Below are positions 5,061 to 22,637 of a DNA stretch of 64,000 nt, piece by piece. A program made the position numbers and the translations under genes. The notes under the pieces are model-generated. The model saw only the letters and a list, made by a program, of their open reading frames with translations. It was not told the DNA's origin and searched no databases. The DNA is taken from the NCBI RefSeq assembly GCF_012044895.1, contig NZ_CP050695.1:650501-714500 (forward strand), read 5' to 3'. The DNA is from Aquisalimonas sp. 2447. GTDB taxonomy: Bacteria; Pseudomonadota; Gammaproteobacteria; Nitrococcales; Aquisalimonadaceae. The number at the start of each line of letters is the position of its first letter. Positions within the stretch are counted from its first letter, which is position 1.

Positions 5061-7049
5061 ATGCAGACACTCTATCTCGCCATTGTTCTCGCCCCGCTGA
5101 TCGGCGCCATCGCTGCCGGCTTCTTCGGTAGTCAGCTCGGCCGGGTCGGGGCGCACCGGGTCACCATCGGCCTGGTGGCGGTGTCGACGCTGCTGTCGCT
5201 GTACGTGCTCAGCGGCTTCATGTGGGGCAATCGCGCCACCTTCGACGAGACCGTCTACACCTGGATGACCGTGGGCGGTCTCCATTTCGAGATCGGCTTC
5301 CTGGTGGACGAGCTCACGGCCATGATGATGGCGGTGGTGACCTTCGTCTCCCTGATGGTGCACATCTATACCATCGGCTACATGGCCGACGAGGACCACA
5401 ACTGGCCGTCGGACAGCAAGCTCGGGCCCCACGCCTACCAGCGCTTCTTCGCCTACATCAGCCTGTTCACCTTCTCCATGCTGATGCTGGTGATGGCGAA
5501 CAATTTCCTGCAGCTGTTCTTCGCCTGGGAAGCCGTGGGCCTGGTCTCCTACCTGCTGATCGGCTTCTGGATGAACCGTCCCAGCGCCGTGTTCGCCAAC
5601 CTCAAGGCGTTCCTGGTCAACCGCGTGGGCGACTTCGGCTTCCTGCTCGGCATCGGCGCCATACTGCTTTACTTTGGCAGCCTCAATTACGCCGAGGTGT
5701 TCTCGGCGGTGGCCGCCAATCCCGACCAGACCATGACCATCTTCGGCACCGCCGAGTGGCAGGTGGTTACCGTGGCGGCGATCCTGTTGTTCATCGGCGC
5801 CATGGGCAAATCGGCCCAGGTGCCGCTGCACGTCTGGCTGCCGGACTCCATGGAAGGCCCCACGCCGATCTCCGCACTGATCCACGCCGCCACCATGGTG
5901 ACCGCCGGCATCTTCCTGGTGGCGCGCATGTCGCCCATCTTCGAGTTCTCGGAAGCGGCCCTGGCGTTCATCCTGGTCATCGGTGCCATCACCGCCCTGT
6001 TCATGGGCCTGGTGGGCCTGGTGCAGCGGGACATCAAGCGCGTGGTGGCGTACTCCACGCTGTCCCAGCTGGGCTACATGGTGGTGGCCTTGGGCGCCTC
6101 GGCCTACGCCGCCGGGGTCTACCACCTGATGACCCACGCCTTCTTCAAGGCGCTTCTGTTCCTCGGTGCCGGCTCGGTGATCATCGCCATGCACCACAAG
6201 CAGGACATGTTCGAGATGGGTGGGCTGAAGAAGTACATGCCCGTGACCTACTGGACCATGCTCCTCGGAACCCTGGCGCTGATCGGCTTCCCTGCCTTCT
6301 CCGGGTTCTTCTCCAAGGACGCCATCATCGAGGCCGTGGCTCATTCCGAGCGCGCCGGCTCCACCTTCGCTTACTGGGCGGTGCTGCTGGGCGTGTTCGT
6401 GACTGCGCTGTACAGTTTCCGGCTGCTGTTCCTGGTGTTCCACGGCAAGGAGCGCATGGATGAACACACCCGCAGCCATCTGCACGAGAGCCCGAAGGTG
6501 GTGACGGTGCCGCTGATCCTGCTGGCCATCCCGTCGGTGCTCATCGGCCTGCCCACCGTCGGCCCCATGGTCTTTGGCGGGTGGTTCGGCGAGAGCATCA
6601 CCGTGCTGCCGGAGAATGACACCCTTGCCGCGGTCGGCTTCGAGAGCGTGCTGGGCTTCCTGGCCCACGCCTTCGTGGCGCCGGTGATCTACCTGGCCGC
6701 TGCGGGCTTCGGTGTTGCCTACTACCTGTACGTGTTGCGTCCGGACTTGCCGGGGGTGCTGGCCAACCGCTTCCCCATGCCGTTCCGGGTGCTGGAGAAG
6801 AAGTACGGCTTCGACGAGCTGTATCTGAACGTGTTCGCCGCCGGCAGCCGCGGGCTGGGTACGCTGCTGTGGCGTGGTGCCGACATGAAGATCATCGACG
6901 CCCTGCTGGTCAACGGCACCGCGCGCACCATCGGTCGGGTGGCGGCCCTGCTGCGTCACGGCCAGACCGGATATCTGTACCACTATGCGTTCGTGATGAT
7001 TGTTGGCTTGATGGTGTTGCTGACCTGGTTCGTCTTCACCCTGCGGTGA
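5061..7049 (+). CDS. nuoL: NADH-quinone oxidoreductase subunit L
   Basis: NuoL is the distal antiporter-like proton-pumping subunit of complex I. The 662-residue protein has many transmembrane helices and the antiporter signatures WLPDSMEGPTPISALIHAAT and FSGFFSKDAI. Its C-terminal region is consistent with the long lateral helix that braces the membrane arm. Length is normal for gammaproteobacterial NuoL. It begins four bases after nuoK, in the same transcription unit. Confidence 0.97.
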   Translation: MQTLYLAIVLAPLIGAIAAGFFGSQLGRVGAHRVTIGLVAVSTLLSLYVLSGFMWGNRATFDETVYTWMTVGGLHFEIGFLVDELTAMMMAVVTFVSLMVHIYTIGYMADEDHNWPSDSKLGPHAYQRFFAYISLFTFSMLMLVMANNFLQLFFAWEAVGLVSYLLIGFWMNRPSAVFANLKAFLVNRVGDFGFLLGIGAILLYFGSLNYAEVFSAVAANPDQTMTIFGTAEWQVVTVAAILLFIGAMGKSAQVPLHVWLPDSMEGPTPISALIHAATMVTAGIFLVARMSPIFEFSEAALAFILVIGAITALFMGLVGLVQRDIKRVVAYSTLSQLGYMVVALGASAYAAGVYHLMTHAFFKALLFLGAGSVIIAMHHKQDMFEMGGLKKYMPVTYWTMLLGTLALIGFPAFSGFFSKDAIIEAVAHSERAGSTFAYWAVLLGVFVTALYSFRLLFLVFHGKERMDEHTRSHLHESPKVVTVPLILLAIPSVLIGLPTVGPMVFGGWFGESITVLPENDTLAAVGFESVLGFLAHAFVAPVIYLAAAGFGVAYYLYVLRPDLPGVLANRFPMPFRVLEKKYGFDELYLNVFAAGSRGLGTLLWRGADMKIIDALLVNGTARTIGRVAALLRHGQTGYLYHYAFVMIVGLMVLLTWFVFTLR

Positions 7050-7126
7050 GGGCGCCTGTCGCGATACCACGGTGGCGGCCGGACAGCCGGCGCCCAAACC
7101 CGTTTGAACTGGTAAGGAAGTAACGG

Positions 7127-8638
7127 ATGTTGGAATCCTCCTGGCCCTTGTTGAGCGTGCTCATCTGGCTGCCCATCCTCGGGGGCGCCCTGATCTTCCT
7201 GCTTGGTGACCACAAGGCCGAGCGGGCGCGCATGATCGCGCTGCTGGTCAGCGGTCTGACATTCGTCCTCAGTCTCGGCCTGATCATCGGTTTCGAGCCG
7301 GGCACCGCGGCCATGCAGTTCGTGGAGAAGCGCCCCTGGGTGGAAGTGCTGGGCGTGAACTACCACCTGGGCGTGGACGGTATCTCCATGCCGCTGGTGG
7401 TGCTGAGCACCTTCTCCACCCTGCTGGTGGTGCTGGCGGCGGGGCAGAAGATCAAATACCGCCCGGCCATGTACCTGGCCTGCTTCCTGATCATGGAAGG
7501 CATCATGGTGGGCGTGTTCGCTGCGCTGGACGCCATCCTGTTCTACGTGTTCTGGGAAGCCATCCTGGTGCCGATGTTCCTGCTGATCGGCATCTGGGGC
7601 GGCGCCGAGCGCATCTACGCCACCATCAAGTTCTTCCTCTACACCTTCGTGGGCTCGGTGCTCATGCTGGTGTCGGTGATCTACTTGCAGCTGCAGGCGG
7701 GCAGCTTCGGCATTCTCGACATGTACGGCCTGGACCTGCCCCTGGGCACGCAGACCTGGCTGTTCGTCGCCTTTCTGCTGGCCTTCGCCATCAAGGTGCC
7801 CATGTGGCCGGTCCATACCTGGTTGCCGGATGCCCACGTGCAGGCGCCCACCGGCGGCTCGGTGATTCTGGCGGCGATCATGCTGAAGCTGGGTGGCTAC
7901 GGGTTCGTGCGCTTCGCCCTGCCCATTGTGCCCGAGGCGAGCATGGAGCTGGACTGGCTGATGATCGGCCTGTCCCTGGTGGCGGTGGTCTACATTGGCC
8001 TGGTGGCGATGATGCAGGAGGATCTGAAGAAGCTCATCGCGTACTCCTCCATCGCCCACATGGGCTTCGTCACCCTCGGCTTCTTCCTGATCTTCCAGAT
8101 CGTGGTCCGCGGCGGCGAGGATGGTGCACTGCTGGCGCTGGAAGGCGCCATGGTGCAGATGATCTCCCACGGCTTCGTCTCGGCGGCCATGTTCCTCTGC
8201 GTGGGCGTGCTGTATGACCGCATGCACACCCGCATGATCAGCGAGTACGGCGGCGTTGCCCACCGCATGCCGGTGTTCGCGGGGCTGTTCGTGCTGTTCG
8301 CCATGGCCAATGCCGGGCTGCCGGGCACGTCGGGCTTTGTCGGTGAATTCATGGTGATCCTGGCCGCGTTCCAGGCGAACTTCTGGTACGCCTTCTTGGC
8401 CGGCCTGACGCTGATTCTCGGCGCCGCCTACACCCTGTGGATGGTCAAGCGCGTGATGTACGGCGAGGTGGCCAACGACAAGGTATCGGCGCTGCAGGAT
8501 CTGGATGGCAACGAGAAACTGGTGCTCGGCCTGCTGGCCGTGGCCGTTCTCTGGCTGGGTATCTGGCCAGCGCCGCTGATCAATGTGATGGAGCCGTCCC
8601 TGGCCCACCTCCTCGAGGTGATCACCGCCGGGCTGTAA
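7127..8638 (+). CDS. nuoM: NADH-quinone oxidoreductase subunit M
   Basis: NuoM is the second antiporter-like proton-pumping subunit. The 503-residue protein contains the antiporter motifs VPMWPVHTWLPDAHVQAPT and LIAYSSIAHMGFV, plus about fourteen hydrophobic segments. The ATG at 7127 follows an AAGGAAG-type ribosome binding site. The 77-base gap after nuoL holds no separate gene. Confidence 0.97.
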   Translation: MLESSWPLLSVLIWLPILGGALIFLLGDHKAERARMIALLVSGLTFVLSLGLIIGFEPGTAAMQFVEKRPWVEVLGVNYHLGVDGISMPLVVLSTFSTLLVVLAAGQKIKYRPAMYLACFLIMEGIMVGVFAALDAILFYVFWEAILVPMFLLIGIWGGAERIYATIKFFLYTFVGSVLMLVSVIYLQLQAGSFGILDMYGLDLPLGTQTWLFVAFLLAFAIKVPMWPVHTWLPDAHVQAPTGGSVILAAIMLKLGGYGFVRFALPIVPEASMELDWLMIGLSLVAVVYIGLVAMMQEDLKKLIAYSSIAHMGFVTLGFFLIFQIVVRGGEDGALLALEGAMVQMISHGFVSAAMFLCVGVLYDRMHTRMISEYGGVAHRMPVFAGLFVLFAMANAGLPGTSGFVGEFMVILAAFQANFWYAFLAGLTLILGAAYTLWMVKRVMYGEVANDKVSALQDLDGNEKLVLGLLAVAVLWLGIWPAPLINVMEPSLAHLLEVITAGL

Positions 8639-8704
8639 CACGCTAACGGATACGCGCGGCAGCCCCGACTGGTTGCCGCCGGGCTTTGAGCTCAGAGGAA
8701 CGCT

Positions 8705-10147
8705 ATGACGACGGACACCTTCGAGACACCGAACCTGATGATCGCCTTCCCGGAGATCTGGATGCTGGGAATGGCGTGCCTGGTGCTGGTGGTCGATCTG
8801 TTCAGCTCGGACCGGGATCACACTCCGGCCTACTGGCTCTCGCAGCTGGCTCTGCTGAGCAGCGTGGTGGTCACCGTCTGGACGCAGTGGGGCCTCGATG
8901 CCACGACCTTCACCGGTAACTACATTGCCGACTCCTTCGGGGTGATCCTGAAGGTCGCCGTGCTGCTGCTGACGTTCCTGGGTTTTGCCTACTCCCGGGC
9001 GTACCTGCGCGAGCGCGGCATGCTCAAAGGGGAGTTCTACCTGCTGACGCTGTTCGCCACCCTGGGCATGATGGTGACCATTTCCGCCCACAGCATGCTG
9101 GTGCTGTACCTGGGCGTGGAACTGATGTCCCTGTCCCTGTATGCGCTGGTGGCCATGCGCCGCGGGTCGCAGGTCGCGTCCGAGGCGGCCTTCAAGTACT
9201 TCGTGCTGGGCGCGCTGGCGTCCGGCCTCCTGCTCTACGGCATGTCCATGATCTACGGCGCCACCGGCAGCCTGGAGCTGTCGGCCATCGCCGGTGCTGC
9301 CGCCGGCGAGGATCGCCTGCTGCTGACATTCGGCCTGGTGTTCGCACTGGTGGGCGTGGCCTTCAAGTTCGGCGCGGTGCCGTTCCACATGTGGGTGCCG
9401 GACGTCTACCAGGGGGCGCCCACGGCGGTGACACTGTTCATCGCCACCGCGTCCAAGGTCGCGGCCGTGGGCCTGTTCATTCGGCTGTTCGGGGAGGCCC
9501 TGCAGCCGCTGCACGGCGACTGGCAGCACATGGTCATGCTGCTGGCCGTGGGCTCGCTGCTGCTGGGGAATACCGTTGCCCTGGTGCAGACCAACATCAA
9601 GCGCATGCTGGCGTACTCCACCTTCAACCACATCGGTTTCATCTTCCTGGGGCTTCTGGCGGGCACCCCCGAGGGATACGGTGCCGCGACCTTCTACGCC
9701 GTGACCTACGCCTTCACGGTTGCGGCAACCTTTGGCGTGGTGATGCTGCTCAGCCGTGAAGGTTTCGAGGCCGAGAACCTGTCTGACTTCAAGGGCCTCA
9801 ACGAGCGCAGCCCGCTGTTCGCCCTGGTGATGTTGCTGTTGATGATCTCGCTGACCGGCATTCCCGGGACCGTGGGTTTCTACGCCAAGTGGATGGTGAT
9901 CCAGGCGACCGTGGACGGTGGCCATATCTGGCTTGCGGTGCTTGCAGTGATCGGCGCAGTGGTCGGCGCCTTCTACTACCTGCGGATCGTGCGCTTGTGC
10001 TACTTCGACAAACCGGAAGGTGACGGCCCGCAGCCCAGCGGCTCCGCCGGATTTCAGGCCGTGCTCGCGGCCAACGGCTTTGGTGTGCTGCTGCTGGGCC
10101 TGTTCCCGGGGGCGCTGGTGGCGGTCTGCATGGCGGCGTTCGGCTGA
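8705..10147 (+). CDS. nuoN: NADH-quinone oxidoreductase subunit N
   Basis: NuoN is the third antiporter-like subunit of complex I. The 480-residue protein has the family signatures FKFGAVPFHMWVPDVYQGAP and RMLAYSTFNHIGFI, with conserved lysines in the membrane helices. A CAGAGGAACG ribosome binding site precedes the ATG at 8705. It closes the nuoG-to-nuoN series, and the next gene starts ten bases after its stop. Confidence 0.97.
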   Translation: MTTDTFETPNLMIAFPEIWMLGMACLVLVVDLFSSDRDHTPAYWLSQLALLSSVVVTVWTQWGLDATTFTGNYIADSFGVILKVAVLLLTFLGFAYSRAYLRERGMLKGEFYLLTLFATLGMMVTISAHSMLVLYLGVELMSLSLYALVAMRRGSQVASEAAFKYFVLGALASGLLLYGMSMIYGATGSLELSAIAGAAAGEDRLLLTFGLVFALVGVAFKFGAVPFHMWVPDVYQGAPTAVTLFIATASKVAAVGLFIRLFGEALQPLHGDWQHMVMLLAVGSLLLGNTVALVQTNIKRMLAYSTFNHIGFIFLGLLAGTPEGYGAATFYAVTYAFTVAATFGVVMLLSREGFEAENLSDFKGLNERSPLFALVMLLLMISLTGIPGTVGFYAKWMVIQATVDGGHIWLAVLAVIGAVVGAFYYLRIVRLCYFDKPEGDGPQPSGSAGFQAVLAANGFGVLLLGLFPGALVAVCMAAFG

Positions 10148-10156
10148 GGACCACGC

Positions 10157-10477
10157 ATGGGCATGACCGCCGCTGTGATCCTGTTGTTCGTGCTGGCGCT
10201 GGTGGCCGCGAACCTGCCCTGGCTTACGGAGCGCCGGTTTCTGCTGTTCGCGCCTCCGGCGGACGGCAAGCGTGAATGGCTGCGGTTGCTGGAATGGCTG
10301 CTGCTCTTCGGCGTTGCCGGTCTGCTGGCCGCTGGCCTCGAATACCAGGTGATTGGCGAAATCTACGCCCAGGACTGGGAGTTCTGGGTGGTCAACCTCT
10401 GCCTGTTCGCGGTGTTTGCGCTGCCGGGGTTCATCTACCATCATGATTTGCGCCGCTACCTGCGCAAGCGCCGTTAA
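10157..10477 (+). CDS. DUF2818-type small membrane protein
   Basis: This 106-residue protein has three or so hydrophobic segments: residues 4-18, about 35-55 and about 75-95. A basic tail (HHDLRRYLRKRR) follows. Small proteins of this kind (DUF2818, recalled family) commonly follow nuoN in beta- and gammaproteobacteria. Its function is unknown. The ten-base spacing after nuoN suggests cotranscription and perhaps a role in complex I assembly, which is inference. Confidence 0.8.
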   Translation: MGMTAAVILLFVLALVAANLPWLTERRFLLFAPPADGKREWLRLLEWLLLFGVAGLLAAGLEYQVIGEIYAQDWEFWVVNLCLFAVFALPGFIYHHDLRRYLRKRR

Positions 10478-10548
10478 GGAAACGCTGAACAATTCCCGCG
10501 TGCCTGTTGCATTCCCCTGAGGCGGGCGCTACCATGCGCAGCGTCAAT

Positions 10549-10625
<77 letters not shown>

Positions 10626-10634
10626 AGCACTATC

Positions 10635-10660
10635 AAAAGGCGGCCCAAGGGCCGCCTTTT
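10635..10660 (+). terminator. Intrinsic terminator after tRNA-fMet
   Basis: A perfect 12-base-pair stem (AAAAGGCGGCCC) with a two-base loop ends in TTTT. It lies ten bases after the tRNA CCA end. It should stop transcription of the tRNA and any nuo read-through, and its A-rich left arm could also serve the convergent minus-strand gene. Confidence 0.88.
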
Positions 10661-10705
10661 GTCGTTTCAGGCTCCGGTGCGCCTGCGCGCCCGTCCGAGT
10701 ATCGT

Positions 10706-11899
10706 TCAGTCCTCACGCACCCTGGCGCCGTCGTCCACCCGCTGGCCGGGGTGAGTGATCACGCGAGCGCCAGCCTGCAGGCCGTCGCGGATCTCTGTCA
10801 TCAGACCGCTACGCCTGCCCGGCTGGATGGCGGTCCGGTGGGCACGGCCATCTTCGGCGACGTACACGAACCACTGATCATCCCTGCGGAACAGTGCGCT
10901 GGTCGGTGCCTGCAGCACGTCATCGTCCTGCCAGAGAATGAAGCGCGCCTCCACCCGGTAATCGTCACCCAACGCCTGCCATTGCTCGCGGGGTGAGGTG
11001 ATGGCGACCCTCACGGGGACGCGCTGTTCGTCCACGCCCAGGGCGGATACCTTCAGGAACCCGCTGGGTTCCACCCGCAGGACTTCCCCCTCCAGGGCGC
11101 CGTCGCCCCCCCAGCGCTCCAGCACCACCGGCATGCCCGGGCGGATGCGCACGGCGTCCATGGACAGCAGATCCACCTGCACTTCCAGGGTGGACAGGTC
11201 GCCGATATCCACCACCGGCTCGCCAGCGCTGACTGGCCCCTCACTGTGCCGGTGCCTGCGGGTCACCACCCCGTTCACCGGCGCGCGCACCTCCATGCGT
11301 GGCTGGTCGCCCGGAGCCCGCGTTCCGTCCGCCACCTCCAGGACGGCGCGGGCTGCGTCCAGCTCGAAGCGCGCCACCTCCGCAGCGTGCCTTGCGGCGC
11401 GTTCGGCGACGCGGCTGGATTCCCGCTGTGCACGCGTGCGCTCCATGACCTCCGCGGAGACCAGCTCGCGGTCGTACATCTGCTGGTAGCGCTGGTCCTC
11501 GGATCGGGCGAGTTGGTGTTGTATCTCCCGCGCTTCCAGCTCGGCTTCCGCGGCCTCATGTCGCGCCCGGGCGGCAGCCACGGATTCGCGCGCCTGGGTG
11601 CGCGCCCGGGCGTCCAGCGCTGGCACCGGCGGAGGCTCCAGGGTGAACACTACCTGGTCCGCCTCAATCGCATCACCCGGTTCCGTTGTGACGCGCTGAA
11701 GATAGCCGGTGACTGGCGCCGACACGGTGTGGGGGGCAGGCAATTGCGTGCGCCCTTCGTCCTCAACGGTTTCGGCGAAATGACCCCGTTCCACCGTTGC
11801 AACGCTGACTGGCACCGGGGACGGCCACAATGCCAGGCCCAGCAACACGGCCATGGCGACTGCGATGAGAACGAGAATGATCTTCTTGCGTGTTGTCAT
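10706..11899 (-). CDS. HlyD/MacA-type periplasmic adaptor
   Basis: The 397-residue protein has an N-terminal membrane anchor (about residues 5-25) followed by a split lipoyl/barrel-sandwich domain (VSAPVTGYLQRV and MEVRAPVNGVV). A long alpha-helical hairpin rich in Ala, Glu and Arg lies between the halves (about residues 85-195), followed by a beta-barrel domain. This is the architecture of membrane fusion proteins that link an inner-membrane transporter to outer-membrane export. It lies six bases downstream of the permease gene, so it is the last gene of a three-gene ABC operon. The substrate is not evident. Confidence 0.85.
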   Translation of the reverse strand: MTTRKKIILVLIAVAMAVLLGLALWPSPVPVSVATVERGHFAETVEDEGRTQLPAPHTVSAPVTGYLQRVTTEPGDAIEADQVVFTLEPPPVPALDARARTQARESVAAARARHEAAEAELEAREIQHQLARSEDQRYQQMYDRELVSAEVMERTRAQRESSRVAERAARHAAEVARFELDAARAVLEVADGTRAPGDQPRMEVRAPVNGVVTRRHRHSEGPVSAGEPVVDIGDLSTLEVQVDLLSMDAVRIRPGMPVVLERWGGDGALEGEVLRVEPSGFLKVSALGVDEQRVPVRVAITSPREQWQALGDDYRVEARFILWQDDDVLQAPTSALFRRDDQWFVYVAEDGRAHRTAIQPGRRSGLMTEIRDGLQAGARVITHPGQRVDDGARVRED

Positions 11900-15322: not shown

Positions 15323-16822
15323 ATGACTGCACAGCATGATCTTTCCAGGTTGTACCGGTTCGGTGATCGCATCTCGGTGGCGATACTGTGGCTTGGCGTG
15401 CTGCTGGCCCTGGCGCTGGCACCGCTCCACGGCACCTGGATGGAGTGGTTCCTGGTGGCGTTGCCGGCGGCGCTGTTGCCCTCCGCGCTGGCTTTTCTGC
15501 TCCCGGGCCATCGGCTCACCCGCGTGGCGGTCGGTGTGGCGTACATGGTGTTCTCGGCGCTGATCATTCACCAGACGCGGGGCATGGCAGAGCTGCACTT
15601 CTCCATCTTCGCGTTGCTGGCTTTTCTGCTGGTCTACCGCGACTGGCTGCCCATCGTCGCAGCCGCAGGCGTGATCGCGATCCACCACCTGTCCTTCAAC
15701 CTGCTGCAGGCGGCGGATGTCGGCGTTTACGTGTTTCCCGAGCCGGGGTTGCACATGGTGTTGGTGCACGCCGCATTCGTCGTTTTCCAGACAGCCATCC
15801 TGGTGTTGCTGGCGGTGATCGGCCGCCGCGACTCCCTTGCGGGTGCGGAGCTGGACGCGGTGGCGCGTGGCCTGCGCGCGGACGAGGGGGATATTGACCT
15901 CCGCTACCGTTTCCCGGCGCCCACCAGTGCGGTGACCGAGGACATGCACGAATCCCTGAGTGCCATCCAGGAGTCCGTGTTATCCGTGCGCAGCACGCTG
16001 GATGATGTCGCCGGACTCGGCCAGACCATGGACGCCGACTCCCGGGTTGCCGTGGAGCAGGCCACGGCGCAGTCGGACGAAACGCGCACCCTGGCGACAT
16101 CGGTCACGGAAATGACTGCCTCCATCGAGGAAGTCGCCCGGAACGCCGGCACCACCGCGGAGACCACTCGCAGCTTCAGTCGGCGGCTGGAGGAGGCGCG
16201 CGACGGCGTGAGCAACGCCAGCAACTCCATCCAGCAGGTGCTCCAGCGGCTGCAGCAGGGCAGCGAGCGCATGACGGCGCTGGAGAAACAGGCCGAGGAG
16301 ATCGGCAGTGTCCTGGACGTGATCCGGAACATTACCGAGCAGACCAACCTGCTGGCGCTCAATGCCTCCATCGAGGCGGCAAGGGCCGGCGATCACGGGC
16401 GTGGTTTCGCCGTTGTCGCCGAGGAAGTCCGTAACCTGGCGGCGCGCACCAGTGAGTCCGCGGGACAGATCGAAGGCATGATTACCGGGCTGCGGCAGGA
16501 GACCGCCGCCAGTGTCAACGCCATGGAGGAGGGGGTCACGGAAACCGGGCGCGGTGCCGATCTGATCACCGGGGCCGACCACACCATGGGTGAACTCCTG
16601 GGCGAGGTGCACCACCTGGACGAGATCACCGCTGGAATCGCCTCCGCTGCGGAGGAGCAGAGTCAGGTTGCCGCGGACATCGATCGGCGTCTCAACCGCA
16701 TCAACGATCAGGCGGAACAGACCCGCGCCCGCACCAGCGACACGGCCGACAACGCCGTGCGCATGCACGCCCTGGTGGAGGACCTGCAGGGGCGCCTGCA
16801 GCGCTTCCTGGTGCGCGACTGA
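15323..16822 (+). CDS. Methyl-accepting chemotaxis protein with membrane-embedded sensor
   Basis: The 499-residue chemoreceptor has about six hydrophobic helices in residues 17-166 and almost no periplasmic domain. The cytoplasmic coiled coil then carries the kinase-control hairpin (NLLALNASIEAARAGDHGRG, then FAVVAEEVRNLA). Histidines are concentrated in or near the membrane helices (His83, 92, 121, 122, 144, 149). The same sensor type (HFSIFALLAFLLVYRDW) is recalled from other proteobacterial receptors without an assigned ligand. No HAMP domain is obvious. It is monocistronic and likely works with a chemotaxis kinase encoded elsewhere. Confidence 0.88.
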   Translation: MTAQHDLSRLYRFGDRISVAILWLGVLLALALAPLHGTWMEWFLVALPAALLPSALAFLLPGHRLTRVAVGVAYMVFSALIIHQTRGMAELHFSIFALLAFLLVYRDWLPIVAAAGVIAIHHLSFNLLQAADVGVYVFPEPGLHMVLVHAAFVVFQTAILVLLAVIGRRDSLAGAELDAVARGLRADEGDIDLRYRFPAPTSAVTEDMHESLSAIQESVLSVRSTLDDVAGLGQTMDADSRVAVEQATAQSDETRTLATSVTEMTASIEEVARNAGTTAETTRSFSRRLEEARDGVSNASNSIQQVLQRLQQGSERMTALEKQAEEIGSVLDVIRNITEQTNLLALNASIEAARAGDHGRGFAVVAEEVRNLAARTSESAGQIEGMITGLRQETAASVNAMEEGVTETGRGADLITGADHTMGELLGEVHHLDEITAGIASAAEEQSQVAADIDRRLNRINDQAEQTRARTSDTADNAVRMHALVEDLQGRLQRFLVRD

Positions 16823-16892
16823 TCCATGCCCGGCGGCGCCCGCCCCGAGGCGGATGTTACGATGCAGCAAAACCGCTGCACAGGAGCATCCC

Positions 16893-18302
16893 ATGGCCGC
16901 CCGCGATACGGAGCTCACCACTGACCAGAAAGCCCTGGCCATCAACCTGGACAAGTTCAAGTTCGGCTCCATCGTGGAAATCGGCGCCGGCCAGGAAGTG
17001 GCGCGGCGGTTTTTCTCGGTGGGCGCGGCCGCCGGGACGGTGGCCAAGACCATGTCCGCCTACGACATGGCCGTCAGCGACGACATCTACGGCCCGGTGG
17101 ACCGCTACGTCAGCCGCGCCCGGCTGATGCAGATGCTGGACAAGGAGTTCAGCCAGGTGGTCAACCGGCTCACCGACGTCCGGCCCCGCAATTCCACGTT
17201 CTTCGCTTATGCGGCCACGGTGACCGCCCGCAGCTTCAAGCAGCAGAACGAGTGCCACGGCTGGGTGGGGATCCGCGCGCAGTTCCACCCCGGTGCTGCT
17301 CCCAGCGACATCGTGCTGCACGTGCGCATGCTGGACCAGGACAACGCCCAGCAGGCCGACGCCCTGGGCATTCTGGGCGTGAACCTGATTCACGCGGCTT
17401 TCTACTACCACAACCGCCCGGAGGACATCATCGACAGTCTTCGGGACGAACTCGGCACCGACCGCATCGAGGTGGACGTGGTCCACTTCTCCGGGCCGTA
17501 CTTCGAGGAGGTGGACAACCGCCGCATGAACGTGCAGCTCATCCGCAGCTGGCTCACGCGGGCGGTGATCTTCAATCCCGACGGCAATGTGGTGGTGCCG
17601 GGGGAGCTGTTCTTCCGCAAGCCGGTGCTGGTGATCCGCGGCCTGTTCAAGCCGGTGACCAAGGTCAACGCGGACATGATGCTGGCGGGGCAGCAGCAGT
17701 TCGACAAGCTCGCCGCCGTGGACCACGACGACACCGTGTCCCTGGCGGAGGTCACCATGAGTTCGCCGACGGCCGCGGACGAAACCGATGACGCCGACTT
17801 GCTGGAGCGCGCGGATCTGCTCGCCGCCCTGGGCTACACGGTGATGATCTCCGATTACGTACGCTTCTTCCGCCTGCGCGCCTACCTGCGCCGCTACACC
17901 CAGAAACCCATCGGCATCGTGCTCAGCGTGCGCGATTTCGGCACCCTGTTCGACGAGAAGTACTACGAAGGCGTCGAGGGCGGCATCCTGGAGGCCTTCG
18001 GCAAGCTGTTCCCGGACAACACCCAGGTGTATGTGTATCCCTCGCGCCGGGACGGCGAGACCGAAACCACGACCCTGCACAACGTCCAGGTGCCGGGGCA
18101 CCTGCGGCATCTGCTCGCTCACCTGGTGGAGAACGGCAAGCTGCAGGCCGTCGAGCCCACTGACGAAAGCTGGCTGCACATCGATGCCGGCGAGGTGCTC
18201 CACGGCGTGCGCCAGGGGCGCGGGGCGTGGGAGGAGGCCGTGCCGGCACCGGTGGCCGAGACCATCATCCAGCGTCGCCTGCTGGGCTTCGACAGGGACT
18301 GA
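16893..18302 (+). CDS. Conserved protein of unknown function (469 residues)
   Basis: The start at 16893 has an AGGAG eight bases upstream. The protein lacks a signal peptide or membrane helices and so appears cytoplasmic. It has conserved-looking blocks near the N-terminus (EIGAGQEVARRFFSVG, SAYDMAVSDDIYGP) and in the middle (GILGVNLIHAAFYYH, FSGPYFEEVDNRRMNVQLI). Similar proteins are recalled from many proteobacteria and cyanobacteria under inconsistent names, none of which the sequence supports. It is flanked by unrelated genes, so context gives no function. Confidence 0.8.
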   Translation: MAARDTELTTDQKALAINLDKFKFGSIVEIGAGQEVARRFFSVGAAAGTVAKTMSAYDMAVSDDIYGPVDRYVSRARLMQMLDKEFSQVVNRLTDVRPRNSTFFAYAATVTARSFKQQNECHGWVGIRAQFHPGAAPSDIVLHVRMLDQDNAQQADALGILGVNLIHAAFYYHNRPEDIIDSLRDELGTDRIEVDVVHFSGPYFEEVDNRRMNVQLIRSWLTRAVIFNPDGNVVVPGELFFRKPVLVIRGLFKPVTKVNADMMLAGQQQFDKLAAVDHDDTVSLAEVTMSSPTAADETDDADLLERADLLAALGYTVMISDYVRFFRLRAYLRRYTQKPIGIVLSVRDFGTLFDEKYYEGVEGGILEAFGKLFPDNTQVYVYPSRRDGETETTTLHNVQVPGHLRHLLAHLVENGKLQAVEPTDESWLHIDAGEVLHGVRQGRGAWEEAVPAPVAETIIQRRLLGFDRD

Positions 18303-19382: not shown

Positions 19383-21386
19383 ATGACCGAAGGCAACAGC
19401 GAGCAGCAGCAGCGGCTCGATCGATTCGCGCAGCGCCTGGATCAGGCCTGCGAACGGCTGGCGCGCACGTCTGCGTTTGCCAAGTTTACCCACAGCTCCG
19501 AGGTCATCGAGGCCGCCCGCCGGCTGCTGGCGGAGCCGGGTGGCGCAGAAGCGGTTTACCACCGCATCGGTGCACTGGACGCCGCCGGTATCTTCTCCGG
19601 CAGCGACTGGGAAACCCCGGAGCTGCTGCAGCCGGAGATGGCGGCCAACACCCTGAAGCTGAGCAGCGATCACATGCTGATCCTGGAATGCCTCAGCGAG
19701 CTGCGCATGGTGGCCATCATTGAGGGCGAGCTGCCACCGGAGCGGTTGTCCCCCGAGGATGCGCGACACTTCCTGGCCAAGGTGCTCGCCCTCAACGTGC
19801 ACCTGGTCTTCGGTGAGCTCAACGAGGCAGAGCGCGTGCGTCTGGGCCGGCACGCCAGCATGGTGCGCCAGCACCAGCGATTCGTGCTGGAGCGCGTGGG
19901 TTTCGATGCGGTGGTGGAGGAGCTGATCACCGAGATCTGGCGCATCCTCCAGCAGCGGCCCATCCAGCTGGACAACGTCAAGGAGATGATCACCAACGTC
20001 GCGGTGTACCTGAACAGCGACGCACCGGGTGTGCCCATGGCCAGCACGCGCGGCGCCGAGCGCCTGATCAGTGCACTGTACGGCCCCACCCGGGCCAGTC
20101 AGGAAGACCCCGGCCTTGATGCGTTCATCCAGCGCCTGCAGAGCATGGACGATCAGACCCTGCGCAACGAGGCCCTGGGCTTCGGCCGCGCCATGCACGA
20201 CACGGGTCTGGTGTCGCCGTACCACGCCACGTTCCTGCGTTTCGTCCTGGACAATGCCCCTGACCTGGTGCCATCCACGCTGGGGCTCAGCAGTACCGGC
20301 GTCGAGGTGCTGGGGAGTTACAGTGAGCTGGTGCACCGCCTGATCCGCGAGGCCATCTGGCCGGAAACCGCCGATGCCATTTACGGGCTGGCGGGTCTGC
20401 TGGAACGCGGCGTGCTCTACCACGGGCCGGTGCCGCCGGCGCTGTGGCGCCAGATCCACCTGAATCTGTCCGACGATGCCCAGCGGCTGCTGGCGCATAC
20501 CGAGTTCGCCGGCGGGCCGTCCGCACGGGTGCGGCTGCTGGCGGGCGTCATCAGCATGCTGGGCCGGCCCCTGGGCATCGGCCAGGGGGACAATCCCACC
20601 TGCCAGTCAGCCCGGGCACTGTCCATGTGGTCCACCAACGACCCGGACTATCTGTTGCAGGTGGTGGCCTGGGCCGCCCGCGACAGTGATGTGATCACCC
20701 ACTTCGAAGGTCATGCATTGTCGTCGTCGGGACTGGCTGCACGGCAGCCACCGCAGCCCCTGTGGGACGTGGATCCGGTGTCGGCGGTCACGGTGCCTCA
20801 CCTGGACGCGCTGTACATGGAGATGGGGCGTTTGTGCGTGGGCCGCGGCGAGGATCCACACCGCTGGGTGAACCCGGAGTTCCACGGCTGGTGGGTAGGC
20901 CGCGGGTTCGCCATCGTCGTGGACGTGGCCACCGGCATGCTGGTGGACCAGGAAGGCTTCGTGTGCCGCTTCTACGCTTGCTACCACCCGCTCTACAACG
21001 GCAATAACCCGGTGATCCACTCGCAGCCGGCAGGCATCGCCGTGACCGATGCCACCGCCCGCTTCATCGGCTGGCACGCCATTTCCATCGAACGGGTGGG
21101 CTTCGATCCCGAGGGCGTCATGCGGGTGTATTTCTTCAACCCCAACAACGACAGTACCCAGGACTGGGGCAACGGCGTGGTGGTCTCCACGGAAGGGGCC
21201 GGGGAGTATCACGGCGAGTCGTCACTGCCGTTCGAGGAGTTTGTCTCCCGGCTCTACATCTTTCACTACGATCCCCGTGACGAGGCCCAGGGCGTGGAGG
21301 TGCCGGAGGAGGCCATGGCGCGCATTCATGCCATGGTTGCCGATAGCTGGGGAGCGGACCGCCAGGCGCCCGCGGAGGACGCCTGA
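19383..21386 (+). CDS. Large orphan with papain-like catalytic pattern
   Basis: I do not recognise this 667-residue protein. It has no signal peptide and no membrane helix, and the first 380 residues look mostly helical. The C-terminal part contains GQGDNPTCQSARALSMW with Gln401 and Cys407, GWHAISIE with His565, and YFFNPNNDS with Asn586 and Asp590. Papain-like peptidases use Gln19, Cys25, His159 and Asn175, and the Gln-to-Cys spacing of six is identical. The inference is a cysteine peptidase, transglutaminase or deamidase fold. It stands alone on its strand, converging on an ATP-grasp gene. Confidence 0.8.
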   Translation: MTEGNSEQQQRLDRFAQRLDQACERLARTSAFAKFTHSSEVIEAARRLLAEPGGAEAVYHRIGALDAAGIFSGSDWETPELLQPEMAANTLKLSSDHMLILECLSELRMVAIIEGELPPERLSPEDARHFLAKVLALNVHLVFGELNEAERVRLGRHASMVRQHQRFVLERVGFDAVVEELITEIWRILQQRPIQLDNVKEMITNVAVYLNSDAPGVPMASTRGAERLISALYGPTRASQEDPGLDAFIQRLQSMDDQTLRNEALGFGRAMHDTGLVSPYHATFLRFVLDNAPDLVPSTLGLSSTGVEVLGSYSELVHRLIREAIWPETADAIYGLAGLLERGVLYHGPVPPALWRQIHLNLSDDAQRLLAHTEFAGGPSARVRLLAGVISMLGRPLGIGQGDNPTCQSARALSMWSTNDPDYLLQVVAWAARDSDVITHFEGHALSSSGLAARQPPQPLWDVDPVSAVTVPHLDALYMEMGRLCVGRGEDPHRWVNPEFHGWWVGRGFAIVVDVATGMLVDQEGFVCRFYACYHPLYNGNNPVIHSQPAGIAVTDATARFIGWHAISIERVGFDPEGVMRVYFFNPNNDSTQDWGNGVVVSTEGAGEYHGESSLPFEEFVSRLYIFHYDPRDEAQGVEVPEEAMARIHAMVADSWGADRQAPAEDA

Positions 21387-21410: not shown

Positions 21411-22637
21411 CTAGACGTAGAAGTCCAGGTCTTCCTGGTGTTTCAGCAGATCCCGCAGCTTGTGCGGGTTGTCCCCGAAGAAGTACACCAGCCCCCAGTG
21501 CGTGCCGAAGGCCGTGCGTTTGGTGACGGTCTCTTCCAGCGGCGGGGTCAGCTCGTGGTACTCGAAGTACTCATGATTCTCGGTCTCCTCCGGAATCTCC
21601 AGCTTCGAGACCACGCGCCGGCGGGGATACACGCCGAAGCAGCCGGCGTGGCCCTTGGCGTCCTGTACCGGCGTCGGGAAAAAGGCCTCGATCTCTTCCT
21701 CGGTGGTCTTGGGATCGAAGCACAGCACCATGCCCTGGTAGGCATTGAAGCCGTAGGCGCGCTCCAGCAGCTCGAACACCTTGAACCCCGGCGGCCGGTA
21801 AGCGACTTCGCCGAAGTACATGGTGCCGTCGCTGGTGACGAAGTACTCCGGGTGGATGAAGCCGAACTCGATGTCGAAGGTCTTGATCAGCTTCTCGATT
21901 TCCTTGGTGATGAGATTCCGCCAGCTCTCCAGCTCCGGCGTGGCCGGTACGAACACGGAGTAGCCCAGGGTGACGTACTCGGAGATGTTCAGGAAGCGGA
22001 TCTTGCCGTTGTGGATCCACGCCTCCACGGCGAACTCCCAGCCATCCAGGTGGCTTTCCATGAGCAGCGGATACTCTTCGTCCGGGATGGTGTCGATCTC
22101 GTCCGGATGGCGAATCACCCGGTGGCCCAGGCAGCCGGCCTTGTCAAAGGCCTTGAGGTGGATGGGGTCGTCCGGGTCGCCGTCGAGCTTCAGCAGGGTC
22201 TGGTTGACGCGCTTGAGGAAGCGGACCACGTCCTCCTTGTCATGGGCCTCCTCGAAAATGCCCACGCGGATGCCGCCGAGCTGGGCGCGGCGCTTCATCA
22301 GCGCCTTGTCGCGGAACAGCACCGCCTGGCCGTGGAGGCGCGGGTTGCCCATAAGGACGGCGTTGATGGCGCCGGCCCACTCCACGGTCTCCTCGAACAA
22401 CGGGATCGCCACGTCCACGCCTTCCTCCTTGAGGCGTTCGGCGATCTCCATGGAGCGGTCGTTCAGGCGTTCGAAATCCCAGGTCATGTGAGGGATTCCG
22501 TGCTCCTTGGCATAGTCCTCGGCCCACTCCGGAGCCACGATGATGTAGCGGCGGTCGAAGCGTTCCAGGGCATCGATGCAGTTGATGCTCCATCCCAGGA
22601 TGGCGACATAGCCCTTGTTCGGATCTTTTTCAGTCAT
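21411..22637 (-). CDS. ATP-grasp domain protein
   Basis: The 408-residue protein has an N-terminal Rossmann-like region (GYVAILGWSINCIDAL) and the central features of an ATP-grasp ligase. These include QTLLKLDGDPDDPIHLKAF, LLMESHLDGWEFAVEAWI and a metal-binding region FIHPEYFVTSDGTMYFGEVAYRPPG. The fold couples ATP hydrolysis to C-N or C-O ligation of a carboxylate. The substrate cannot be read from the sequence or from the neighbours. The ATG at 22637 is the only good start. A 17-base palindrome lies about 65 bases upstream. Confidence 0.85.
   Translation of the reverse strand: MTEKDPNKGYVAILGWSINCIDALERFDRRYIIVAPEWAEDYAKEHGIPHMTWDFERLNDRSMEIAERLKEEGVDVAIPLFEETVEWAGAINAVLMGNPRLHGQAVLFRDKALMKRRAQLGGIRVGIFEEAHDKEDVVRFLKRVNQTLLKLDGDPDDPIHLKAFDKAGCLGHRVIRHPDEIDTIPDEEYPLLMESHLDGWEFAVEAWIHNGKIRFLNISEYVTLGYSVFVPATPELESWRNLITKEIEKLIKTFDIEFGFIHPEYFVTSDGTMYFGEVAYRPPGFKVFELLERAYGFNAYQGMVLCFDPKTTEEEIEAFFPTPVQDAKGHAGCFGVYPRRRVVSKLEIPEETENHEYFEYHELTPPLEETVTKRTAFGTHWGLVYFFGDNPHKLRDLLKHQEDLDFYV

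Follow-up and report, generated by a model that had tools for sequence, protein, structure and literature searches.

In hundreds of species, one ligase gene goes with a large protein family that has neither a name nor a Pfam entry. The member of this family from Aquisalimonas sp. 2447, a 667 aa protein to which we refer as PAP, probably represents an undescribed, widespread family of cysteine enzymes with a probable papain-like core, and the gene that converges on it is predicted to encode an ATP-grasp enzyme of the L-amino-acid-ligase type. Carriers of the pair belong to two phyla or more, among them Proteobacteria and Actinobacteria, and include the genetically tractable Halomonas, Marinobacter and Streptomyces.

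The PAP family and its predicted fold

The window, that is the whole stretch of 64,000 nucleotides that was analysed, corresponds to bases 650501-714500 of a 3.97 Mb genome present as a single contig. The features of PAP are as follows.

19383..21386, + strand: PAP coding sequence, 667 aa, papain-like Cys-His-Asn protein; open reading frame with ATG start, homologues 43-94% identical
19386..20495, + strand: N-terminal all-helical region, residues 2-371, predicted to be alpha-solenoid-like; AlphaFold2 helices without strands, weak armadillo/HEAT-like matches
20481..21278, + strand: predicted papain-like catalytic domain, residues 367-632; VIA-align matches, 33% invariant positions
20583..20585, + strand: Gln401 codon; Gln in 133/133, from its conservation the probable oxyanion-hole glutamine
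20601..20603, + strand: Cys407 codon; Cys in 133/133, probable nucleophile, with which the modelled helix 407-419 begins
21075..21077, + strand: His565 codon; His in 133/133, probable general base in the modelled strand 561-574
21138..21140, + strand: Asn586 codon; Asn in 132/132, within an invariant N-P-N, probable third triad residue after the modelled strand 580-585

A further gene of the window (16782-18302, + strand) encodes a 506 aa protein with no Pfam or NCBIfam match and comes directly after a methyl-accepting chemotaxis gene (15323-16822); close relatives of this protein within the same genus were matched upstream of PAP at four loci (L002, L003, L031 and L032).

The first-pass annotation had proposed a papain-like set of residues in PAP, and the translated open reading frame carries Gln401, Cys407, His565 and Asn586 exactly where they were claimed, in the motifs GIGQ401GDNPTC407QSARALSMW, GWH565AISIE and FFN586PNND590. 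Their conservation is in line with the proposal, since none of the four was replaced at any readable position (133 or, for Asn586, 132) among 140 distinct PAP sequences and fragments, divergent paralogues included, and all four were identical in all 27-28 relatives of the first alignments. In the 28 relatives of at least 43% identity, the invariant residues comprised Q401, G402, P405, T406, C407, Q408 and S409 together with G563, H565, A566, N586, P587 and N588, and the surroundings of the Gln-Cys pair were conserved in the family as the motif QG[N/D]xPTCQ. Cys407 is the sole invariant cysteine of PAP. Conservation alone failed to pick out His565, because His493, His501 and His535 are also invariant, while the predicted fold did single it out. 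Invariant positions made up 33% of the catalytic part versus 13% of residues 1-375. No hydrophobic N-terminus was seen in PAP, in agreement with the earlier statement that a signal peptide is absent.

Scans of the PAP family against Pfam, NCBIfam, PADLOC and PHROG gave nothing above cut-off, with no PADLOC match up to E 10, and the PAP profile found only designed helical bundles among PDB sequences. An IcmF-related match (E 0.0065) came from one PAP member only and was taken as chance helical similarity.

An AlphaFold2 model of PAP built with 50 relatives (mean pLDDT 82, pTM 0.77) reproduced the helical front that had been surmised, over about 370 residues, and placed Cys407 at the opening of helix 407-419, His565 within strand 561-574 and Asn586 right after strand 580-585. 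A papain-like core had also been expected, and among solved structures, residues 367-632 of the model did best resemble papain-like peptidases, although the scores were modest. In the VIA-align search the calpain-1 core ranked top (Z 7.1, rmsd 4.5, 198 residues, model residues 367-631), a value obtained with the domain cut from the whole-protein model and to be read against the 7-8 that is usual for models lacking a clear match. It was followed, in a list ranging from 7.1 to 4.8, by the bacterial C1-type Pd_dinase (Z 5.5) and staphopain (Z 4.9), the last pairing model residues 393-630 with chain residues 10-173 and model residue 393 with chain residue 10. Gln401 and Cys407 would thus fall on staphopain Gln18 and Cys24, which we take to be catalytic, if the start of the match is ungapped. 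Foldseek with the whole PAP model returned nothing significant (E > 0.06), with solenoid matches on top.

Membership of PAP in known papain-like families was also assessed. C39_2 (PF13529) and DUF3335 (PF11814) were rejected, as hhalign gave probabilities of 0.2-0.3% and Pfam no match, while in the control these two families found each other at 97.6%. BtrH_N and transglutaminase membership were likewise without Pfam support; PAP had no match to Transglut_core (PF01841), and transglutaminases were missing from the VIA-align list, which does not exclude them. On the strength of the model, the catalytic part of PAP probably adopts a papain-like fold that forms a separate branch; its activity may be that of a peptidase, an acyltransferase, a deamidase or a transglutaminase.

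PAP had been described as an orphan, a label that does not hold, as at least 578 genome stretches encode a relative (578 of 596 among the peptide-pattern matches listed for genome_contigs). The nearest named relatives among the matches listed were from an Aquisalimonas MAG (94%) and A. lutea (79%), and the best 80 matches included Aquisalimonas, Halorhodospira, Halomonas, Vreelandella, Marinobacter, Oceanimonas and Pelagibius as well as the actinobacterial Streptomyces, Amycolatopsis and Saccharopolyspora. A PAP match was obtained in 32 of the 59 relatives' genomes, two at noise level (E 7e-4 and 6e-6), and in 13 of the 369 genomes of an even sample of the class, these 13 spanning ten families. 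Searches of phage records and viral contigs gave no match to PAP, and 72,556 plasmids gave one, on a 1.8 Mb megaplasmid of Halomonas sp. PA16-9; a phage or mobile origin was rejected on these grounds.

A ligase gene that accompanies PAP

The adjacent gene, which forms a conserved pair with PAP and was missing from the first-pass annotation, has two features of note.

21411..22637, - strand: ATP-grasp ligase coding sequence, 408 aa, of L-amino-acid-ligase type by Pfam and predicted fold; convergent with PAP, 24 bp from the PAP stop
21786..21854, - strand: putative ATP/Mg-binding segment HPEYFVTSDGTMYFGEVAYRPPG, residues 262-284, from the HMM alignment to RizA (4wd3) and BL00235 (3vot)

Pfam ATP-grasp_4 was matched by 37/37 ligase members. 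Over its whole length the ligase model resembled the solved folds of BL00235 (3vot, Z 23.8), BacD/YwfE (Z 23.6) and RizA (Z 23.1), the structures matched also including 3wnz, 3vmm and 4wd3, and the ligase HMM reached E 0.0026 to 3vot and E 0.0065 to RizA. The E-x-A-x-R segment was recovered, with GEVAYR of the ligase aligned to GEIAMR of RizA, and H262, P263, E264, E277, A279 and R281 were invariant in the ligase relatives. Across phyla, 36 relatives shared 79-96% identity with the ligase, a stronger constraint than that on PAP.

The two genes occur together. Of the 369 class genomes, the 13 with the ligase were also the 13 with PAP (hypergeometric P 3e-24, kinship ignored, with weak ATP-grasp cousins left out of the count), and among the relatives' genomes a mismatch between the two was seen only in incomplete genomes and in two chance matches. 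Both genes were kept though apart in five genomes (G339, G038, G022, G027 and G006), the distance being large in G339, G038 and G022 for example, and two others (G576 and G478) harboured a second pair, complete with a ligase paralogue of its own. At adjacent loci all four arrangements were encountered, with the ligase before PAP in 104, convergent genes in 20, divergent genes in 4 and PAP before the ligase in 4, some loci being counted more than once. The distance matrices of PAP and the ligase were correlated (r 0.77, 0/2000 permutations), and the PAP tree and the ligase tree both nest Actinobacteria within Gammaproteobacteria, from which we conclude that the pair was transferred together. 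Clustering of ORFs at 80 loci for a conserved third neighbour yielded, besides the ligase, only lineage-specific neighbours.

A second type of ligase, extended at its N-terminus (about 435-463 aa), was observed at five loci, adjoining its own PAP paralogue (motif VGRHAIT) in L146 and L159 and standing alone in L152, L157 and L158. A third PAP copy in G576, without a ligase, lies between Memo and GCS2-like plus AstE/AspA-like genes (locus L147, G576:C1:1655000-1672000, 6413-11868), as if it were part of a second small-amide pathway. In G038, where the ligase is some 19 kb from PAP, a C39_2 peptidase fused to TPR repeats (locus L154, 4078-5052, - strand) is encoded about 2 kb from the ligase; this neighbour belongs to a family unrelated to PAP by profile.

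The ectoine setting and the possible role of the pair

The ectoine synthase gene ectC was present in 13/13 carriers of the pair versus 53 of the 369 class genomes overall (P 3e-12, kinship ignored), a test that says nothing within the window's own order, because ectC is nearly universal there. About 40 ectC-bearing class genomes were without the pair, and ectC may merely mark salt tolerance, as may the pair itself. One contig (L160, G311:C12, 342-5437) carries the order PAP, HDAC-type deacetylase (PF00850), ligase and ectC (PF06339); the PAP and HDAC genes of this lineage overlap by a few bases, and fragments of the cluster were found in G053 and G049. Direct neighbourhood with ectC was confined to this one lineage of fragmented metagenome bins and one contig of Saccharopolyspora soli, in which ectC with a truncated ectB is 1.9 kb from the ligase. 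At the latter locus (L071, 2421-3191, - strand) apparently only the C-terminal end of ectB precedes ectC, and this ectoine cluster may be broken. An HDAC-type gene was found within 300 bp of PAP at 8 loci from at least five lineages, in varying orientation. The HDAC and ectC neighbours favour a chemistry on acylated amines.

Extra ectC-like genes in G034, G223, G330, G053-C400 and G003 were none of them near the pair. Away from the pair we also observed EctC domains within longer frames of about 560-620 aa (L166, 3670-5367; L168, 69-1751; L171, G330:C69, near 8346-8690), possibly fused ectoine-synthase-like proteins.

There is, in our estimate, an even chance that PAP and the ligase share one pathway in which an amide is made and then broken or transferred. 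The ligase would activate a carboxylate as an acyl phosphate (aminoacyl phosphate) and join it to an amine to give an amide. PAP would be a cytoplasmic papain-like cysteine enzyme with the triad Cys407-His565-Asn586 and Gln401 as the oxyanion residue, whose helical front probably binds substrate or partner; it would form a thioester at Cys407 and pass the acyl group either to water, breaking the bond, or to another amine or acceptor. An HDAC-type deacetylase would join the pathway in some lineages. We infer a common bond for the two enzymes, the direction in which they would act and a link to ectoine or osmotic stress. Ectoine-producing bacteria, most of them salt-tolerant, have retained the pair and passed it on as a unit, and its product therefore most likely has a place in their metabolism or stress physiology. 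In the boldest form of this reading, which we regard as a long shot, the pair would form a so far undescribed branch of ectoine/diaminobutyrate metabolism or else a novel type of amide osmolyte pathway, in which the ligase and a papain-like acyltransferase, sometimes with HDAC and EctC, make and recycle a solute, acylated or peptide, in several hundred species that tolerate salt.

Other readings place the two activities differently. By analogy with BtrH, which acts after BtrJ in butirosin biosynthesis, or with phytochelatin synthase, PAP could be a biosynthetic acyltransferase that passes on a ligase-made acyl group, the product being a small amide of osmolyte type, perhaps with 2,4-diaminobutyrate or a different precursor of ectoine as its base. 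Acyltransferases with a papain fold have been described (PMC10318531), and the tight co-occurrence with ectC, the PAP-HDAC-ligase-ectC cluster of G311 and the third PAP copy in G576, beside genes that are all for small-amide enzymes, are in line with such a role. However, no acyl carrier protein was seen next to the pair, PAP has no BtrH_N Pfam match and ectC is a neighbour in very few lineages, and we hold this proposal to be possible but tentative. Somewhat more doubtful, again by analogy, is a reversible protein modification, in which the ligase would attach an amino acid or a peptide to some target protein, from which PAP would remove it. The same two activities make up the couples TTL/vasohibin on tubulin and RimK/RimB on a ribosomal protein, the constancy of the ligase across phyla would be expected if it recognised a conserved macromolecule, and the helical front of PAP could be a protein-binding solenoid, but no target protein is encoded nearby, where HDAC and ectC are the only recurrent third genes, and the nearest ligase folds are those of free-amino-acid ligases and not of RimK or TTL.

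That PAP is a plain cytoplasmic cysteine protease whose link with the ligase has an unrelated cause, both being mere passengers of salt-adapted genomes, is highly improbable; while its nearest folds are proteases, the perfect co-occurrence, the four arrangements, the paralogous pairs and the joint transfer to Actinobacteria all speak against it. A defence or anti-phage module, as an undescribed enzyme pair that crossed phyla might suggest, can practically be dismissed, as PADLOC and the phage and viral records gave no match, the pair is chromosomal and near-universal in whole genera, and no variable defence-type neighbours were seen.

The shared make-and-break or make-and-transfer pathway remains our preferred reading. 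The constant partner offers two genes that can be tested, a chemistry to look for (an amide formed at the expense of ATP, then reversed or transferred) and the setting of ectoine producers. Should the product be a new solute or a protein modification, bacterial salt adaptation would gain an extra layer, one carried by industrial Halomonas strains.

Comparison with known systems

PAP shares with the clan CA peptidases (calpain C2, C1B Pd_dinase and staphopain C47) the order Gln, Cys, His, Asn and the Gln-Cys spacing of six, and in the model also the Cys that opens a helix and the His in a strand, the best PDB fold matches, modest in score, lying in this clan. Unlike them, it lacks profile similarity to the two families tested (C39_2 and DUF3335) and has no Pfam family, has its Cys helix and His565 separated by about 150 residues, has a predicted helical front of about 370 aa, and is probably intracellular. 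The partner resembles the L-amino acid ligases BL00235, RizA and BacD/YwfE in its modelled whole-length fold (Z 23-24), in ATP-grasp_4 and in the E-x-A-x-R segment, but it is only 10-18% identical to them and is tied to a cysteine enzyme; in contrast to antibiotic-type ligases, it is conserved at about 80% across phyla.

In the eukaryotic tubulin tyrosine ligase/vasohibin couple, a cysteine peptidase whose core is papain/transglutaminase-like reverses the action of an ATP-grasp ligase. The substrate there is a protein, and the likeness to the PAP-ligase pair is in logic only. Gene neighbourhoods combining amidoligases and peptidases were reportedly surveyed by Iyer et al. 2009, which PMC10318531 and PMC12239564 cite, and the pair resembles them in linking a probable papain-like domain to a peptide-ligase gene, PAP itself having no DUF3335 profile match. 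Our literature search outside that survey found no description of a ligase-protease pair in halophiles, and a search for ATP-grasp enzymes in Halomonas in connection with salt found only the unrelated DMSP lyase DddX. Papain-like DUF3335 domains have been linked to peptide ligases (PMC10318531, citing Iyer et al. 2009).

The RimK-RimB and Rlo operons couple an ATP-grasp protein with a retropepsin-like peptidase, and Rlo has been linked with osmotic stress (PMC12239564). The PAP-ligase pair has the same two-step logic of ATP-grasp protein and peptidase. Their peptidase, however, is aspartic (DTG motif), whereas PAP carries conserved Cys, His and Asn and matches no aspartic-peptidase family of Pfam, the partner matches ATP-grasp_4 and not RimK, and no RloB-like membrane protein was seen. 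Couples of an ATP-grasp enzyme and a peptidase are thus already known, and the PAP-ligase pair differs from them in the class of its peptidase, the type of its ligase and its hosts.
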